Assembly: GCF_001857965.1 (NCBI RefSeq)
Contig: NZ_CP017774.1
Span: 992,001-1,056,000 of the forward strand
DNA length: 64,000 nt
Direction: 5' to 3'
From: Flavobacterium commune
Lineage (GTDB): Bacteria > Bacteroidota > Bacteroidia > Flavobacteriales > Flavobacteriaceae
A program made the translations under genes and the position numbers. Positions within the stretch are counted from its first letter, which is position 1. The number at the start of each line of letters is the position of its first letter. Positions 52,087 to 58,805 of this stretch are shown piece after piece. Below the pieces are notes generated by a model. It worked only from the letters and a program-made list of their open reading frames with translations, had not been told where the DNA came from and did no database searches.

Positions 52087-52422
52087 AAGTTTATTACTTA
52101 AATTACTATTTTGTTATTCCTGAAAACTTATTTATTATCTTAAAAAAGAGTTACCAATAAAACAGCAACTCTTTTTACCAACTATATGACTAACCAAAAT
52201 CACATTCAAAAAAGTTCTTTCCTATATAAAGGACATCTTTTTTATTATATACTCATTAAATTATAACTTTTTTTTAATTTCACACAAAAAAAACCTAAAA
52301 CCCTTATTCCCAATCACAGTAAGACGCTCATTTTTTTGCAAAATTCATTAGTATAAAATAACAAATAACGTTTTATTGAAACATATTTGCTAATTTAGTA
52401 TATTTATGCAAATTTTATATAC
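52087..52422. other. Divergent intergenic region with hairpin
   Basis: This 336-bp noncoding stretch separates the sigma gene from the InsA-like gene. It contains a perfect 10-bp stem AAAAAGAGTT (52143-52152) and AACTCTTTTT (52167-52176), with T-runs on both strands, about 60 bp upstream of the sigma ATG. A weak promoter for the InsA-like gene lies at 52375-52406. The rest is AT-rich with nothing recognised. Confidence 0.6.
52375..52406 (+). promoter_or_regulatory. Possible promoter of the InsA-like gene
   Basis: ATTG (52375-52378) and TATATTTA (52399-52406, one mismatch to TAnnTTTG) are 20 bp apart and end 16 bp before the ATG at 52423. Confidence 0.4.
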
Positions 52423-52842
52423 ATGGAAGATATCAGTTGCCCAAAATGCCAGGAAAATAAAATAGTAAAAAGTGGTGTTATTAACCAAAAGCAAAGGTAT
52501 TTATGCAAAAAATGCAACTATTTTTTCACTGTGAGCAAATTGGGAAAAAAAATAGACGATTACTATGTTACCAAAGCCTTACAACTTTATCTCGAAGGAT
52601 TGAGTTACAGAGAAATCGAACGCATTATTGGCGTTTCGCATGTAAGCATAAGCAATTGGATAAAATCTTTCAATATAAAAAAACCGGTAAACACTAACTA
52701 CCATCCCACATACAAAATACTAAACCACTTAGAACTAGTAGAATATATAAAAAACAAAGAAACCATCTCAGGTGCAGGAATGATTATCACCGAACTGGGT
52801 GATAAATTCATGCTTATCAAATGGGAACGATTTAAAAAATAA
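52423..52842 (+). CDS. InsA-like zinc-ribbon/HTH protein (stand-alone)
   Basis: A 139-aa basic protein resembling the InsA part of IS1-family transposases. The N-terminus is a zinc ribbon with CPKC and CKKC pairs (ISCPKCQENKIVKSGV, YLCKKCNYFFTV). A helix-turn-helix follows (ALQLYLEGLSYREIERIIGVSHVSISNWIKSF, in parts), then a C-terminal segment with no DDE catalytic residues. No InsB-like frame, terminal inverted repeats or target duplication is visible around it, so it is not an intact IS1. It lies 104 bp upstream of an acetate transporter gene and on the same strand as the acetate module, so a domesticated DNA-binding regulator is plausible. This function is inference. A degraded IS remnant is the alternative. 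Confidence 0.75.
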   Translation: MEDISCPKCQENKIVKSGVINQKQRYLCKKCNYFFTVSKLGKKIDDYYVTKALQLYLEGLSYREIERIIGVSHVSISNWIKSFNIKKPVNTNYHPTYKILNHLELVEYIKNKETISGAGMIITELGDKFMLIKWERFKK

Positions 52843-52946
52843 CTATACTCTTTACAATTATATATATATTATTTTTTTATACAAACAAAAAAACTGAATT
52901 TGCTATCCTATTTAACCCAAAACAACCTTAAAATTTTAAACCAATT

Positions 52947-53507
52947 ATGGAACAAGTACTAAAAGACACTACTGCCAATCCAGCTCCACTGGGACTCTTC
53001 GGCTTCGGAATGACAACTATTTTATTAAACATCCACAATGCAGGATTCTTTGATCTCAATGCGATGATTATGGGAATGGGAATATTTTTTGGCGGAACAC
53101 AACAGGTTATTGCCGGAATTATGGAATGGAAAAAAGGAAACGGTTTTGCCATGGCAGCCTTTACTTCTTATGGTTTCTTTTGGTTATCATTGGTTGCTTT
53201 ATGGCTGCTGCCTTTAATAGGTGTCAACAAACCTGATGGCGCTTCAATGGGATGCTACTTAGGGATGTGGGGATTATTTACATTTGCTTTTTTTATAGGA
53301 ACTCTAAATGGTAATACCGTTGGAAAATTGATTTTTGGCTCACTGGTAATTTTATTTGCGCTATTAGCAGCAGCTAGTTTTACAGGAAGTGAACAAATTC
53401 ATACCATTGCAGGTTACGAAGGAATTTTATGCGGATTTTTTGCTTTTTACGAAGCAGCCGCAATTGTAATTAATGAAAAATTAGGTAAACAGCTTTTACC
53501 TTTATAA
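52947..53507 (+). CDS. satP: Acetate uptake transporter (SatP/GPR1/FUN34/YaaH family)
   Basis: Inner-membrane transporter for acetate and possibly succinate. The family signature NPxPLGLxGF is present as NPAPLGLFGFGMTT near the N-terminus. Six hydrophobic segments follow, with GGTQQVIAGIMEWKKGNGF and FTSYGFFWLS in the positions expected for the family. The length (186 aa) matches SatP. The gene is followed by a terminator at 53519-53546 and then by the sensor kinase unit and acs, so uptake, sensing and activation of acetate are encoded together. Confidence 0.93.
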   Translation: MEQVLKDTTANPAPLGLFGFGMTTILLNIHNAGFFDLNAMIMGMGIFFGGTQQVIAGIMEWKKGNGFAMAAFTSYGFFWLSLVALWLLPLIGVNKPDGASMGCYLGMWGLFTFAFFIGTLNGNTVGKLIFGSLVILFALLAAASFTGSEQIHTIAGYEGILCGFFAFYEAAAIVINEKLGKQLLPL

Positions 53508-53518
53508 AAAATAACATG

Positions 53519-53553
53519 CAATAGCCTTATTCATTTAAGGCTATTGTATTTTT
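53519..53553 (+). terminator. Terminator after satP
   Basis: Perfect 11-bp stem CAATAGCCTTA (53519-53529) and TAAGGCTATTG (53536-53546), 6-nt loop, followed by TATTTTTTAG. It lies only 15 bp before the next gene, so it may act as a partial stop rather than a complete boundary. Confidence 0.78.
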
Positions 53554-53560
53554 TAGTTCA

Positions 53561-53755
53561 ATGAAAAAAAGACATGAACAAAAATTAATTATCCTTTCAA
53601 TGCTGATGATTTTAGCATTGAACATTCCGCTTATTCTATTATTTGATAGTTCGAAACCCTTATTTGGTTTCCCTATTACTTATATCTACATCTTTTCGGC
53701 CTGCTTATTTTCAATTGGCACCACCTACCTAATTGTAAAAAAATATTATGAGTAG
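53561..53755 (+). CDS. Small two-helix membrane protein
   Basis: A 64-aa protein with two hydrophobic helices (LIILSMLMILALNIPLILLF and ITYIYIFSACLFSIGTTYLIV), a basic N-terminus and the connecting loop DSSKPLFGFP. The stop overlaps the start of the SSS-kinase gene by 8 bp, so the two are translationally coupled. Small membrane proteins accompany some sodium:solute symporters, so a subunit or stabiliser of the kinase's transporter-like domain is plausible (inference). No family recognised. Confidence 0.78.
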   Translation: MKKRHEQKLIILSMLMILALNIPLILLFDSSKPLFGFPITYIYIFSACLFSIGTTYLIVKKYYE

Positions 53756-56450
53756 TCTGGGGCTGTTGTTAATCTTAGCCATCTATGTAGTAATGCTTTT
53801 TTACATTGCACATTGGTCTGAAAAAAGAAGCCATTCTAAATGGACTAACAACCCTTATGTTTATTCATTTTCACTGGCGGTTTATTGTACTGCCTGGACC
53901 TATTACGGTAGTATTGGTTTAGCAGCACAAACCGGTTTGGATTATTTACCCATTTATTTAGGCCCAATAATCATTATTCCCACCTGGATTATCATCCTTA
54001 AAAGAATTATCCGAATTTCGAGAGTCAACAAAATAACCAGTATTGCCGATTTTATTTCGTTGCGTTACGGCAACAGTCGATCACTGGGAGCCTTAGTTAC
54101 TTTAATTTCTATTTTCGGAATTGTACCCTACATTGCCTTACAGCTAAAAGCCATATCCGATACTTTTCACGTTGTTACCAAGACACAGGCGAGTTCCAAT
54201 ATTTTTACAGACAACACTACTTATATTTGCATTGCCTTAGCACTATTTGCTTCTTATTACGGTAACAAATACGTTGATGCTTCCGAAAAAAGACGCGGAA
54301 TTGTAACCGCCATAGCCATTGAATCGATTTTAAAATTAGTCTTCTTTTTGATTATCGGCATCTATGTAACTTATTTTGTTTTCGATGGTTTTGACGATAT
54401 TTATACCAAAGCATCCGTTTTAGAAAACTTTGACAAAAAAAACACCATCGGCAATTTGACTAACGGACTCAACTGGTTTTTCCTGTGTCTGATTTCTATG
54501 TTTGCCATTTTTATTTTACCAAGACAATTTCACACCGCAATTGTCGAAAACAATCAGGAAAAACATATTCGAACTGCCATTTGGTTGCTTCCGCTTTACT
54601 TATTACTTTTTAATGTTTTTGTATTTCCAATAGCCTGGGGAGGCAACATTCTTTTTGGAACTCAGGGTTTGAATTCCGATACTTATTCATTACTAATTCC
54701 GCAATATTTCAACAATAATTTCTTAACCGTTTTAGTATTTCTGGGAGGATTTTCAGCAGCCATTTCGATGATTATTGTTTCTTCGATTACACTTGCCACT
54801 ATGCTTAGTAACAACCTTTTAATCCCTTATGGTTTTATTGGTTCATTAGAAAATGTTTCTCAAGAAAAAAACACCAAAAGAATCGTTCTTAGTCGAAAAA
54901 TCGGAATCTTTTCGCTCATCATTCTAGGCTATATTATCTATCGTGTTTTTATTTTAGATTACACTTTAGTTTCCATCGGATTAGTTTCTTTTGTTATTAT
55001 AGCTCAATTAGCTCCTGCATTTTTCGGAGGTTTATTTTGGAGAAGAGGCTCTAAAAAAGGGGCTATAACCGGCATTATCCTTGGCTTTTTAGTTTGTTTT
55101 TATACCTTATTAATTCCATACGCACTTGGAACAACAAACTCAGCGAGCACCTTTGTACAGAAAGGCCCTTGGGGAATCGCATTATTAAAACCTTTTCAGC
55201 TTTTTGGACTGGATTATTTAGAACCCATTCCACAGGCAGTTTTCTGGAGTTTATTAGTCAATTTTCTAAGCTATATGGCGGTTTCGGTAAGTTTTAGCGG
55301 TAATTATCGCGAACGCAATTATGCTGAAATGTTTGTTGATATTGACCGATACATCACCAATCACGAGAATGCTTATGTATGGAAAGGAACAGCCAATATT
55401 TCGGATGTTCAAAAAATATTAGAGCGTTTTTTAGGTATCGAAAGAACCCAACGCGCCATGACTATTTTTAACCTGAAATACAATATTGACAAAGACAATA
55501 AGATTGCCGATGCACGTTTTATCAAATTTGCCGAAAATTTACTCACAGGTCATATAGGTACGGCTTCCGCCAAAATAGTCATTTCCAGTGTAGCCAAAGA
55601 AGACAAAATAAGTCTGCCTGAGGTTTTGCGAATTCTGGAAGAATCCAAAGAAAACATCATCATCAACAAAAAACTAACCGAGAGTTCGAATGAGCTAAAA
55701 ATATTATCAGAGCAACTTCAAATTGCCAATAAAGAACTCATTAACAAAGACATTCAAAAAGATGAATTTCTGGACACGGTAACCCACGAATTAAGAACGC
55801 CCATAACAGCAATACGTGCCGCTACCGAAATCCTGCATGACGACGAAAATATTCCTGCCGAAGTACGCCAAAAATTTCTGCAAAATATCATCTCCGAATC
55901 CGACAGACTCAATCGTTTGATTGACAAAATTTTGGATTTAGAAAAATTTGAAACCGGGAAACAAAAAATTTATCTTTCTAAAAACAATATCTGCCAAACC
56001 ATCAACAACACCCTTGAATCGCTACAACAATTAATAGCCAACAAAAATATATATGTTGACTTTAAAGACCAATCCCGGGAAGTAAAAGCCTTTTATGACG
56101 AAGAGCGCATCATTCAGGTATTGCATAATCTATTTTCGAATGCGATTAAATTCTGCGAAAGCATAGCCGGGAAAATCACTATTAAACTAATCGAAAATCC
56201 TGATTTTGTATCCGTTAGTATCCACAACAATGGAAAAGAAATAAAACCCGAAGATTTTGAAGCCATTTTTGATAAATTTTATCAATCCAGAAATCAAAAC
56301 CTAAAAAAACCCATAGGAAGCGGTTTAGGATTAGCTATTTGCAAAAAAATTATTGAACATCATAAAGGAAAAATATGGGTGGAGAGCTCAACCGGAAAAG
56401 GAACAAGCATTATTTTTACATTACCCAATTACAATACTACTGAAAAATGA
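53748..56450 (+). CDS. Sodium:solute symporter-STAC-histidine kinase fusion (CrbS/CbrA type)
   Basis: A 900-aa sensor in which a transporter-like module is fused to a kinase. Residues about 1-525 form a sodium:solute symporter domain with roughly 13 membrane helices (YCTAWTYYGSIGLAAQTG, IADFISLRYGNSRSLG). A STAC-like linker follows (about 545-640: ILERFLGIERTQRAM, FAENLLTGHIGTASAKIVISS), then a coiled coil. HisKA comes next (DTVTHELRTPITAIRAA, phospho-acceptor His680, codon 55785-55787), then HATPase (HNLFSNAIKFCES, GSGLGLAICKKIIEHHKGKIW). No PAS domain is evident. Proteins of this design sense or transport small acids; CrbS controls acs in Vibrio and Pseudomonas. The receiver gene overlaps by 4 bp (ATGA) and acs follows. 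Confidence 0.93.
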   Translation: MSSLGLLLILAIYVVMLFYIAHWSEKRSHSKWTNNPYVYSFSLAVYCTAWTYYGSIGLAAQTGLDYLPIYLGPIIIIPTWIIILKRIIRISRVNKITSIADFISLRYGNSRSLGALVTLISIFGIVPYIALQLKAISDTFHVVTKTQASSNIFTDNTTYICIALALFASYYGNKYVDASEKRRGIVTAIAIESILKLVFFLIIGIYVTYFVFDGFDDIYTKASVLENFDKKNTIGNLTNGLNWFFLCLISMFAIFILPRQFHTAIVENNQEKHIRTAIWLLPLYLLLFNVFVFPIAWGGNILFGTQGLNSDTYSLLIPQYFNNNFLTVLVFLGGFSAAISMIIVSSITLATMLSNNLLIPYGFIGSLENVSQEKNTKRIVLSRKIGIFSLIILGYIIYRVFILDYTLVSIGLVSFVIIAQLAPAFFGGLFWRRGSKKGAITGIILGFLVCFYTLLIPYALGTTNSASTFVQKGPWGIALLKPFQLFGLDYLEPIPQAVFWSLLVNFLSYMAVSVSFSGNYRERNYAEMFVDIDRYITNHENAYVWKGTANISDVQKILERFLGIERTQRAMTIFNLKYNIDKDNKIADARFIKFAENLLTGHIGTASAKIVISSVAKEDKISLPEVLRILEESKENIIINKKLTESSNELKILSEQLQIANKELINKDIQKDEFLDTVTHELRTPITAIRAATEILHDDENIPAEVRQKFLQNIISESDRLNRLIDKILDLEKFETGKQKIYLSKNNICQTINNTLESLQQLIANKNIYVDFKDQSREVKAFYDEERIIQVLHNLFSNAIKFCESIAGKITIKLIENPDFVSVSIHNNGKEIKPEDFEAIFDKFYQSRNQNLKKPIGSGLGLAICKKIIEHHKGKIWVESSTGKGTSIIFTLPNYNTTEK

Positions 56451-56809
56451 AGAAAATATTAATTGTAGATGACGAACCTAATATTGTAATGTCACTGGAA
56501 TACACTTTTAAAAAAAATAATTTTGAGGTATTCATAGCCCGCGACGGACAAGAGGCATTGGATATTTTAAAGAACCAATTGCCGGACATCATTATTCTCG
56601 ACGTGATGATGCCTATGGTTGACGGTTACAGTACATTGGAACAAATCAAACAAGATGCCCGATTGGATCATTGCAAAGTGATTTTTATTTCGGCAAAAAA
56701 CAAAGAAAAAGACATTGAAAAAGGACTCGCATTAGGAGCTAATTTATACGTAACCAAACCTTTTTCTCTGAAAAAACTCGTTGAACAAGCCCAGGAATTA
56801 ATAAACTAA
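56447..56809 (+). CDS. Receiver-only response regulator (CheY-like)
   Basis: A 120-aa protein consisting of a single REC domain. Key residues are visible: acidic pair Asp8/Asp9 in LIVDDEPN, phospho-acceptor Asp52 in IIILDVMMP, Ser82 in VIFISAKN and Lys104 in YVTKPFSLKK. No DNA-binding or enzymatic output domain is present after residue 120, unlike CrbR, which has a LuxR-type HTH. The gene overlaps the SSS-kinase gene by 4 bp and precedes acs by 24 bp, so the pair is clearly a two-component system. The output must therefore be another protein, or a protein-protein contact. Confidence 0.95.
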   Translation: MKKILIVDDEPNIVMSLEYTFKKNNFEVFIARDGQEALDILKNQLPDIIILDVMMPMVDGYSTLEQIKQDARLDHCKVIFISAKNKEKDIEKGLALGANLYVTKPFSLKKLVEQAQELIN

Positions 56810-56833
56810 CAAAACTAAATACAAACAAAAATC

Positions 56834-58741
56834 ATGAGTCGTTACAAGATTAGTAATTTCGAAGAATACTTTAAAGAGTACAAAAAATCAATCAAAGACC
56901 CGAAGAAATTTTGGGACAAAATTGCCTCTGAAAACTTTACCTGGTACCAGGAATGGGACAAAGTAGTTGATTTCAACATGGCAGAAGCCGAAATAAAATG
57001 GTTTGTAGATGCTAAGGTAAATATCACCAAAAACTGTATCGATCGCCATTTAGCTAAAAAAGGAGACAAAACAGCTATCATTTTTGAACCTAACAATCCT
57101 GACGAAGCTTCACAATCGATCACTTACAATGAATTACACCAACGTGTAAGCAAAATGGCAAATGTTTTATTGAGCCAAGGAATTCAAAAAGGAGATCGTG
57201 TATGTATTTATTTGCCTATGATCCCTGAATTAGCCATTACTACATTAGCTTGCGCCCGTATTGGAGCCATTCACTCAGTAGTTTTTGCCGGATTTTCAGC
57301 ATCGGCTGTTGCTGCCCGAATTAACGATAGCGAATGTAAAATGGTGATTACTTCTGACGGTGGTTATCGTGGAAATAAAACCATTGACCTAAAAGGAATT
57401 GTTGACGAAGCATTGGTTAACTGTCCATCGGTAGAAACGGTTTTAGTTGCTCAAAGAACCAATACGGATATCCAAATGAAAGAAGGACGTGACTTATGGT
57501 TAGCTCCTCTAGTGGAAAAAGCATCAGACAATAATGCTGCCGAAATCATGGATGCCGAAGATCCGTTGTTTATCCTTTATACTTCGGGTTCTACCGGAAA
57601 ACCAAAAGGAATGGTACATACAACAGCAGGTTATATGGTCTATACTGCTTATACTTTCCAAAATGTTTTTAACTACGAAGAGAATGATGTTTTCTGGTGT
57701 ACTGCCGACATTGGCTGGATTACCGGACATTCTTATATTTTATACGGTCCGCTATTAAACGGAGCTACCACTGTTATTTTTGAAGGCGTTCCTTCTTACC
57801 CTGATTTCAGTCGTTTTTGGGAAGTAATCGAAAAACATAAAGTAAACCAATTCTATACGGCACCAACAGCCATCAGAGCTTTGGCCAAAGAAAGTTTAGA
57901 TTATGTACAAAAATATCCTTTGAGTTCGTTAAAAGTAATTGGTTCAGTTGGAGAACCTATCAACGAAGAGGCTTGGCACTGGTACAATGACCACGTGGGC
58001 GGAAAACGTTGTCCTGTTGTGGATACCTGGTGGCAAACTGAAACCGGAGGAATTTTGATTTCACCAATTCCTTTCATTACACCAACAAAACCAACGTATG
58101 CCACTCTCCCTCTTCCGGGAATCCAGGCTGTTTTGATGGACGAAAAACGCAACGAGATTGAAGACAATCAGGTAGTAGGAAGTTTGTGTATTAAGTACCC
58201 TTGGCCTGGAATTGCAAGAACCATTTGGGGTGATCACAAACGTTATAAAGAAACGTATTTCTCTACTTTCCCGGGAAAATATTTCAGTGGTGACGGTGCT
58301 TTACGTGATGAAGTGGGCTATTACAGAATCACAGGTCGTGTGGATGATGTAATTATTGTTTCAGGACACAATTTAGGAACTGCTCCTATTGAAGATGCCA
58401 TCAACGAACATCCGGCAGTTGCCGAAAGTGCTATTGTAGGTTTCCCTCATGACATCAAAGGAAATGCTTTGTACGGTTTTGTAATTCTAAAAGAAACAGG
58501 AGAAAAACGCGACAAAGCTAATTTGGCTAAAGAAATCAACCAACATATCGCAGATCATATTGGTCCTATAGCGAAATTAGACAAAATTCAATTTGTTTCC
58601 GGATTGCCAAAAACCCGATCCGGGAAAATCATGCGACGCATTCTTCGTAAGATTGCCGAAGGGGATTTTTCAAACTTTGGAGACACCACAACTTTATTAA
58701 ATCCGGAAATTGTGGAAGAAATCAAAAATGGAAAACTATAA
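56834..58741 (+). CDS. acs: Acetyl-CoA synthetase
   Basis: AMP-forming acetate:CoA ligase that activates acetate to acetyl-CoA in the cytosol. The 635-aa length is near the norm. The adenylate-forming core motif is LYTSGSTGKPKGMVHTTAGY. WCTADIGWITGHSYILYGPL and VDTWWQTETGG are acs-specific regions. The C-terminal lid contains GRVDDVIIVSGHNLG, and the catalytic Lys subject to acetylation in other bacteria is in PKTRSGKIMRRILR. It lies 24 bp after the receiver gene and ends with a strong terminator, closing the acetate module. Confidence 0.96.
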   Translation: MSRYKISNFEEYFKEYKKSIKDPKKFWDKIASENFTWYQEWDKVVDFNMAEAEIKWFVDAKVNITKNCIDRHLAKKGDKTAIIFEPNNPDEASQSITYNELHQRVSKMANVLLSQGIQKGDRVCIYLPMIPELAITTLACARIGAIHSVVFAGFSASAVAARINDSECKMVITSDGGYRGNKTIDLKGIVDEALVNCPSVETVLVAQRTNTDIQMKEGRDLWLAPLVEKASDNNAAEIMDAEDPLFILYTSGSTGKPKGMVHTTAGYMVYTAYTFQNVFNYEENDVFWCTADIGWITGHSYILYGPLLNGATTVIFEGVPSYPDFSRFWEVIEKHKVNQFYTAPTAIRALAKESLDYVQKYPLSSLKVIGSVGEPINEEAWHWYNDHVGGKRCPVVDTWWQTETGGILISPIPFITPTKPTYATLPLPGIQAVLMDEKRNEIEDNQVVGSLCIKYPWPGIARTIWGDHKRYKETYFSTFPGKYFSGDGALRDEVGYYRITGRVDDVIIVSGHNLGTAPIEDAINEHPAVAESAIVGFPHDIKGNALYGFVILKETGEKRDKANLAKEINQHIADHIGPIAKLDKIQFVSGLPKTRSGKIMRRILRKIAEGDFSNFGDTTTLLNPEIVEEIKNGKL

Positions 58742-58762: not shown

Positions 58763-58805
58763 AAAACCAAAAGCTACTCAATAAACCGGGTAGCTTTTGG
58801 TTTTT
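58763..58805 (+). terminator. Terminator of the acetate operon
   Basis: Perfect 14-bp stem AAAACCAAAAGCTA (58763-58776) and TAGCTTTTGGTTTT (58791-58804), 14-nt loop, followed by T on the plus strand, 22 bp past the acs stop. Confidence 0.88.

Follow-up and report, generated by a model that had tools for sequence, protein, structure and literature searches.

In the 64,000-nucleotide stretch of the Flavobacterium commune genome analyzed here (contig NZ_CP017774.1, positions 992,001 to 1,056,000; hereafter the window), which is part of a single 3.85-Mb contig, a gene for a small InsA-like protein stands at the head of an acetate-use module that continues with the transporter gene satP, a small membrane protein gene (smp), an SSS-type sensor histidine kinase, a receiver-only response regulator and the acetate-CoA ligase gene acs (Table 1). 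In many Bacteroidota, this small transposase-like DNA-binding protein co-travels with the acetate-linked kinase and probably serves as its genetic switch; a tandem DNA element before the insA-like gene is a new finding. The InsA-like protein is probably a dedicated local regulator that is gated by the receiver. We consider it fairly likely that it is the dedicated DNA-binding output of the whole module, with the receiver acting through its C-terminal domain (C-domain) and acs being reached by transcriptional read-through.

The insA-like and kinase genes are inherited together at several taxonomic depths. In a family sample of 299 genomes, the insA-like gene was found in 33, the sensor half of the kinase in 32, and both in 31; in all 31 the two genes are neighbors on one strand, and the receiver gene was called at 29 of these loci and could be read by frame at the remaining two. 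The genus sample (199 genomes) contained insA in 72 genomes (as a fragment in G851 and in two pieces in G818), the kinase in 73, and both in 71; linkage was found in 70 of these 71, one of the 70 being the fragment pair, and the exception (G692) is split over two contigs. Only one of the two genes was found in G832, G708 and G831, in each case on a cut contig. These genus counts leave out six of 78 matches, each a weak sole match of its genome (E 1e-12 to 4e-9); by sequence, five resemble IS1 transposases and the sixth (G824) is a LacI-type protein. In the phylum sample (395 genomes), insA was present in 32 genomes, two of them with internal stop codons (G470, G481), after four weaker of 36 matches had been left out (G440, G322, G422, G368); the kinase was present in 41, and all 28 genomes with both genes had them linked. 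A further set of 80 named loci, mostly from Flavobacterium or Flavobacteriaceae and in part from the same genomes as the three samples, represents the best 80 of 565 and is biased by the peptide patterns used; the kinase lies downstream in 73, six are too short to tell, and Flavobacterium psychrophilum is without it, so that 73 of the 74 loci with enough contig show the pair. In G851, an apparent single deletion has taken the C-terminus of InsA and the SSS part of the kinase together, a case of co-decay. Absence or decay of the insA-like gene beside the kinase-acs cluster of relatives, which an earlier note on this DNA had named as evidence against its own proposal, was thus not the pattern found in the family, where linkage held in 31 of 31 genomes.

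The same conservation bears on the disfavored and very improbable explanation that the InsA-like protein is a passenger, a remnant of IS1, beside a receiver that works as a phosphate sink or relay without a role in transcription. Some homologs do carry the database names "IS1 family transposase" or "transposase-like protein" (names taken from the best 120 of 2640 homologs at E 1e-10 or better), and the zinc ribbon is common to the InsA-like protein and IS1 transposases. Yet the InsA-like proteins of the 30 other kinase-linked family genomes share 65-72% identity with the window copy along almost their whole length and occur in one copy each, the gene has its own conserved DNA element, and two genuine IS1 transposases from the genus exceed the InsA-like protein in length and reach 180 and 173 bits on the IS1 model, against its 78 bits.

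The DNA element is a pair of direct repeats with the consensus TGCTAAATTANTATA, spaced by exactly 19 bp, and is interpreted as a candidate tandem operator. At no more than six mismatches in 28 positions, the pair was found in 52 of 59 evaluable upstream regions (the window plus the family, genus and phylum genomes; 60 were collected and one was too short), and at no locus did any of 200 mononucleotide shuffles do as well. The seven regions without the pair are L064, L065, L096, L098, L104, L107 and L108; a poorer pair with a spacing of 20 bp is found at L096. In 45 of the 59 regions the distance from the start of the pair to the ATG is 35 bp; elsewhere it is 37-68 bp with unchanged spacing, which means that the position of the pair is not tied to the start codon. 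Among the named loci, all 77 that could be evaluated (80 less three cut short) have the pair, always at -35. When whole genomes were searched at up to two mismatches, the pair occurred once, at insA, in each of 32 other genomes with InsA and kinase; it occurred in none of eight searched genomes without the InsA-kinase pair, including three with an InsA-like protein and no kinase (G064, G280, G456). The window's own genome has the exact site once and one two-mismatch site elsewhere, and shuffling predicts 0.01 occurrences in the window; three-mismatch matches over 40 genomes numbered eight, versus four for a backward control. A matrix built from the same upstream copies matched 125 times across 74 loci, and 106 of these matches lie at insA promoters. 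Since ten kinase loci without InsA yielded one borderline match (13.1 versus a threshold of 13), the element follows InsA and not the kinase. A dedicated DNA-binding output that acts locally would be expected to show just such co-inheritance and a conserved, near-unique repeat, and the earlier proposal that the InsA-like protein is the transcriptional output of the module, activated directly or through the phosphorylated receiver, is to this extent borne out in part.

The repeat could instead be the site of another regulator, or a plain, strong and conserved insA promoter; it sits at the place expected of a promoter, and the TTTG and the TA-rich stretches in it look like promoter elements known from Bacteroidetes. 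This explanation is quite unlikely in view of the 15-bp length of the repeats and their constant spacing at varying distance from the ATG, of the single occurrence per genome in 32 genomes, unlike a general promoter, and of the ten InsA-less kinase loci, which lack the element save for the borderline match.

A possible site of contact with the receiver is the C-domain. The AlphaFold2 model of the InsA-like protein (mean predicted local distance difference test score, pLDDT, 80.8) consists of a zinc ribbon, a three-helix helix-turn-helix (HTH) and a beta-alpha-beta-beta domain; modeled alone, the C-domain reached a mean pLDDT of 79.4. Fold searches gave no clear relative. Identity was measured against the consensus of 131 InsA-like proteins, a set that takes in loci cut before the kinase as well as F. 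psychrophilum, the fifth kinase-less genome, and leaves out the broken genes of G470 and G481. In the four other kinase-less genomes, C-domain identity was 35, 37, 12 and 10%, compared to a minimum of 47% among the 131, whereas the zinc ribbon (53-61%) and HTH (58-67%) stayed in range (minima 51 and 58%). The C-domain is therefore out of range in four of five evaluable kinase-less genomes while the DNA-binding part is in range; because two of the four share a genus, these amount to about three independent cases. The divergence would fit a C-domain that meets the receiver.

Several observations weigh against the receiver-gated account of the module. The kinase occurs without InsA in 13 phylum genomes and in G270 of the family sample; 10 of these 14 loci were fetched (nine from the phylum sample, plus G270), and the receiver also stands alone at all seven that were readable (L066, L088, L090, L091, L093, L094, L095). 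Conversely, InsA occurs without a detected kinase in G064 and G280, with the gene order insA-DUF4212-SSS-acs, in G456, with an acs-like gene about 2 kb downstream of insA, and in G577, where the contig ends at the locus and the genome has no kinase at the search threshold; G064, G280 and G456 are also without the exact 19-bp pair. In F. psychrophilum no kinase was detected, by a search that had no positive genome and so shows little, yet the C-domain is conserved; its insA lacks the normal start codon at the conserved place. As to the element itself, in none of 45 gaps before the smp-kinase-receiver-acs genes did it score above all shuffles, before acs it is rare (L119 and L121 only), and the inverted copies that follow insA in the window are weak, with a score that 1 of 40 shuffles reached. 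The genomes with broken insA genes (G470, G481) are likewise without a detected kinase.

The retention of InsA in a few kinase-less genomes indicates that it can work without the kinase. It lends some substance to a second explanation, in which the InsA-like protein regulates locally on the tandem repeat and independently of the receiver, in response to a cue of its own, such as a metabolite acting at the C-domain, and the kinase-receiver pair acts elsewhere, through another regulator or on transport. InsA kept with transporter or acs genes where no kinase was detected (L064, L065, L096, L097) and receiver-only partners at loci without InsA are as this explanation would have it; the near-perfect co-inheritance of InsA with kinase and receiver, and the C-domain divergence in four of five kinase-less genomes, speak against it, and we regard it as rather doubtful. 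The receiver-only partners of InsA-less kinases also imply that loss of the HTH is not peculiar to InsA systems, and the description of the output as "rewired" in the earlier note was too strong.

InsA-less kinase loci have neighbors of their own. Five of them (L087-L089, L093, L094) encode a protein of 316-380 amino acids downstream of kinase and receiver; that of L088 has a PAS domain and, as judged by eye, a C-terminal half resembling a degenerate histidine kinase. An ArsR-type regulator adjoins the distant kinase and receiver of G270. At L066, a distant pair of SSS kinase and receiver-only regulator lies beside an ArsR-type regulator and genes that look TRAP transporter-like by eye, with a porin on the other strand; this locus may follow the same principle with a different DNA-binding protein as partner.

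In the favored, receiver-gated mechanism, the zinc ribbon and HTH of the InsA-like protein would autoregulate its gene by binding the 19-bp-spaced repeats at the insA promoter, and would also bind weaker inverted copies before the transporter promoter; both actions are suggested by analogy with IS1 InsA at its inverted ends. The SSS kinase would sense or transport a substrate and then phosphorylate the stand-alone receiver, which would alter InsA activity, in either direction, by touching its C-domain. Most transcription of acs would come from polymerase reading through the hairpin that separates the transporter gene from the kinase gene. A strong terminator-like hairpin occupies the satP-smp gap (window 53505-53562), and the same gap is predicted to hold a hairpin in all 17 relatives displayed, judged by eye; on this account the six genes are unlikely to form one uniform operon. 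Across these relatives the hairpin persists despite exchange of the transporter.

The gap between insA and the next gene was compared at 55 loci. The best-scoring copy of the repeat was on the minus strand in 49, the mean score of the inverted copies was 3.8 compared to -2.7 for shuffles, and 16 gaps scored above all 40 shuffles. The block TAaCTATAntanTTtACA, directly after the insA stop codon, is kept in 72 porin-type intergenic regions, and a similar block occurs in six of six satP-type ones. Further downstream, a conserved GAATTTGG-like block may, to judge from its conservation, be the -7 element of the transporter promoter. In many loci of other family genera (L038, L045, L046 and similar), a stretch around GCACACAAAACCAAT forms a second conserved block after the inverted repeats in the insA-to-porin gap.

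The transporter slot itself is variable. It is filled by DUF4212 plus a VC_2705-type SSS symporter, by an MFS protein of the metabolite/H+ symporter type (below the model cut-off), or by SatP; the family of each was determined for representative proteins and extended to the others by profile. SatP occupies the slot at the window locus, in genomes G683 and G747, and at 5 of the 80 named loci, of which at least one probably belongs to a genome already counted. Whichever transporter fills the slot, the regulator genes and the tandem element are unchanged. At five loci (L054, L059, L061, L062, L063), two acetyl-CoA synthetase units share one frame of 1272-1286 amino acids downstream of the receiver.

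Table 1. Positions of genes and candidate regulatory elements of the acetate-use module, counted from the first nucleotide of the window.
Feature	Position	Strand	Remarks
Candidate tandem operator, two direct repeats	52388..52421	+	52388-52402 TGCTAATTTAGTATA; 52407-52421 TGCAAATTTTATATA; 19 bp apart; ends 1 bp before start codon
insA-like regulator gene	52423..52842	+	139 amino acids; zinc ribbon about 1-45, HTH 46-88, beta-alpha-beta-beta C-domain about 93-136
Inverted weaker repeat copy	52843..52856	-	directly 3' of insA stop codon; block TAaCTATAntanTTtACA conserved
Second inverted weak copy	52865..52879	-	2 mismatches; score reached by 1 of 40 shuffles at the locus
GAATTTGG-like block	52896..52903	+	GAATTTGC in window; conserved; candidate -7 promoter element of transporter gene
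satP, acetate uptake transporter	52947..53507	+	186 amino acids; NF038013 above cut-off
Terminator-like hairpin and T run, between satP and smp	53516..53559	+	-19.1 kcal/mol, z -6.2
Small membrane protein gene (smp)	53561..53755	+	64 amino acids; conserved beside kinase
SSS-type sensor histidine kinase	53748..56450	+	900 amino acids
Receiver-only response regulator	56447..56809	+	120 amino acids
acs, acetate-CoA ligase	56834..58741	+	635 amino acids; TIGR02188 above cut-off
Terminator-like hairpin 3' of acs	58763..58804	+	-23.7 kcal/mol, z -6.2

The six open reading frames were confirmed as the earlier note had read them, consecutive on one strand with overlaps of 8 bp between smp and kinase (53748-53755) and 4 bp between kinase and receiver (56447-56450). 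The zinc ribbon of the InsA-like protein belongs to the IS1/IS1595 type (NF050000, 40.2 bits versus a cut-off of 28); the HTH is homeodomain-like and scores below the Pfam gathering score. SatP falls within the SatP/AceTr family (NF038013, 256 bits versus 50), and AcsA scores 962 bits on TIGR02188, with a cut-off of 725. Family scans place HisKA and HATPase_c in the kinase. The family profile of its SSS half matches a solved chain, 10ed_A, named "histidine kinase" (E 5e-81); the window's SSS half has no Pfam SSF match, and 6 of 12 aligned sequences do match. The STAC domain that had been attributed to the kinase gave no match in general Pfam scans, and no STAC sequence was compared; PAS domains were likewise without a match in the Pfam scan. 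The claim that the regulator lacks a DNA-binding domain held, with Response_reg alone spanning its 120 amino acids; D8, D9, D52 and K104, the usual phosphorylation residues, are invariant in the alignment, and receiver-profile matches at the loci studied comprise 121 genes of 107-164 amino acids.

The DNA-binding part of this signaling system may originally have come from a mobile element. On the IS1 transposase model NF033558, the InsA-like protein scores 77.8 bits, under the cut-off of 100, and covers model positions 1-120 of 199; by this score and the partial coverage it is not identified as an IS1 transposase. Two longer IS1 transposases of the genus score 180.5 and 173 bits over positions 1-199. 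In the IS1 elements of the genus, the outer end is accompanied by a second copy close to where the transposase gene begins, which is reminiscent of the repeat arrangement around insA. The best alignment of the repeats with IS1 terminal repeats covers 18 columns with one gap, and the similarity is not significant; shuffle p-values versus five IS1 ends, uncorrected for multiple tests, were 0.04-0.13 for the consensus, 0.01-0.14 for the first window copy and 0.11-0.78 for the second. Because the letter similarity of the repeats is not significant, IS1 domestication is only a lead, and the comparisons are only suggestive of descent from IS1. In a more far-reaching version, an IS1-type zinc ribbon/HTH module would have been domesticated as the output: a kinase and a stand-alone receiver would have captured it along with its flanking repeats, which would now serve as operators, and would address it through a newly added C-domain, giving a portable switch that takes unrelated acetate transporters in turn. 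We regard this version as a tentative possibility, less likely than not. A second kind of regulator with a transposase-type ribbon was seen at L137:1054-2238 and L138:841-2142, where an IS1-type zinc ribbon fronts LacI-family regulators (LacI HTH and sugar-binding domain identified by Pfam for L137, and by sequence only for L138).

Many receiver-only response regulators are without an assigned output, and the one described here gains a specific, testable partner, operator and C-domain. If the receiver-gated reading is true, it would explain the control of acetate uptake in many Bacteroidota, and would show that bacteria can place a DNA-binding module of transposon type under phosphorelay control. 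One example of mobile-element-type proteins serving as transcription factors has been described (PMC13418256). The factors of that example are RNA-guided and, unlike the proposed InsA-like output, are not known to act with a two-component system.

In Vibrio and Pseudomonas, the SSS-type kinase of the CrbS/CrbR (MxtR/ErdR) system controls acetate use, with acs as a target (PMC5715377, PMC5436829, PMC9100948); CrbR in Gammaproteobacteria is described as a LuxR-type activator (PMC5715377, PMC9100948) that acts at an inverted repeat (PMC5715377). The window shares the SSS-domain sensor kinase, and its link to acs is one of adjacency; in contrast to CrbR, its receiver stands alone without a LuxR-type domain, and the candidate output is of the IS1-InsA type, with a direct repeat. 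In Pseudomonas putida, the gene for a small membrane protein, CbrX, with two predicted helices overlaps the start of the SSS kinase gene cbrA, and translational coupling of the two has been shown (PMC6591292); in the window, the shared feature is the overlap of smp with the kinase start. InsA of IS1, which combines a zinc finger with an HTH, binds the terminal inverted repeats at both ends of the element and is a repressor of the IS1 promoter (PMC12428005). Oppositely oriented repeats also flank the insA-like gene of the window; unlike IS1 InsA, its product has no transposition gene beside it, carries an extra C-domain, and is encoded in a single copy at a fixed place in a metabolic module.

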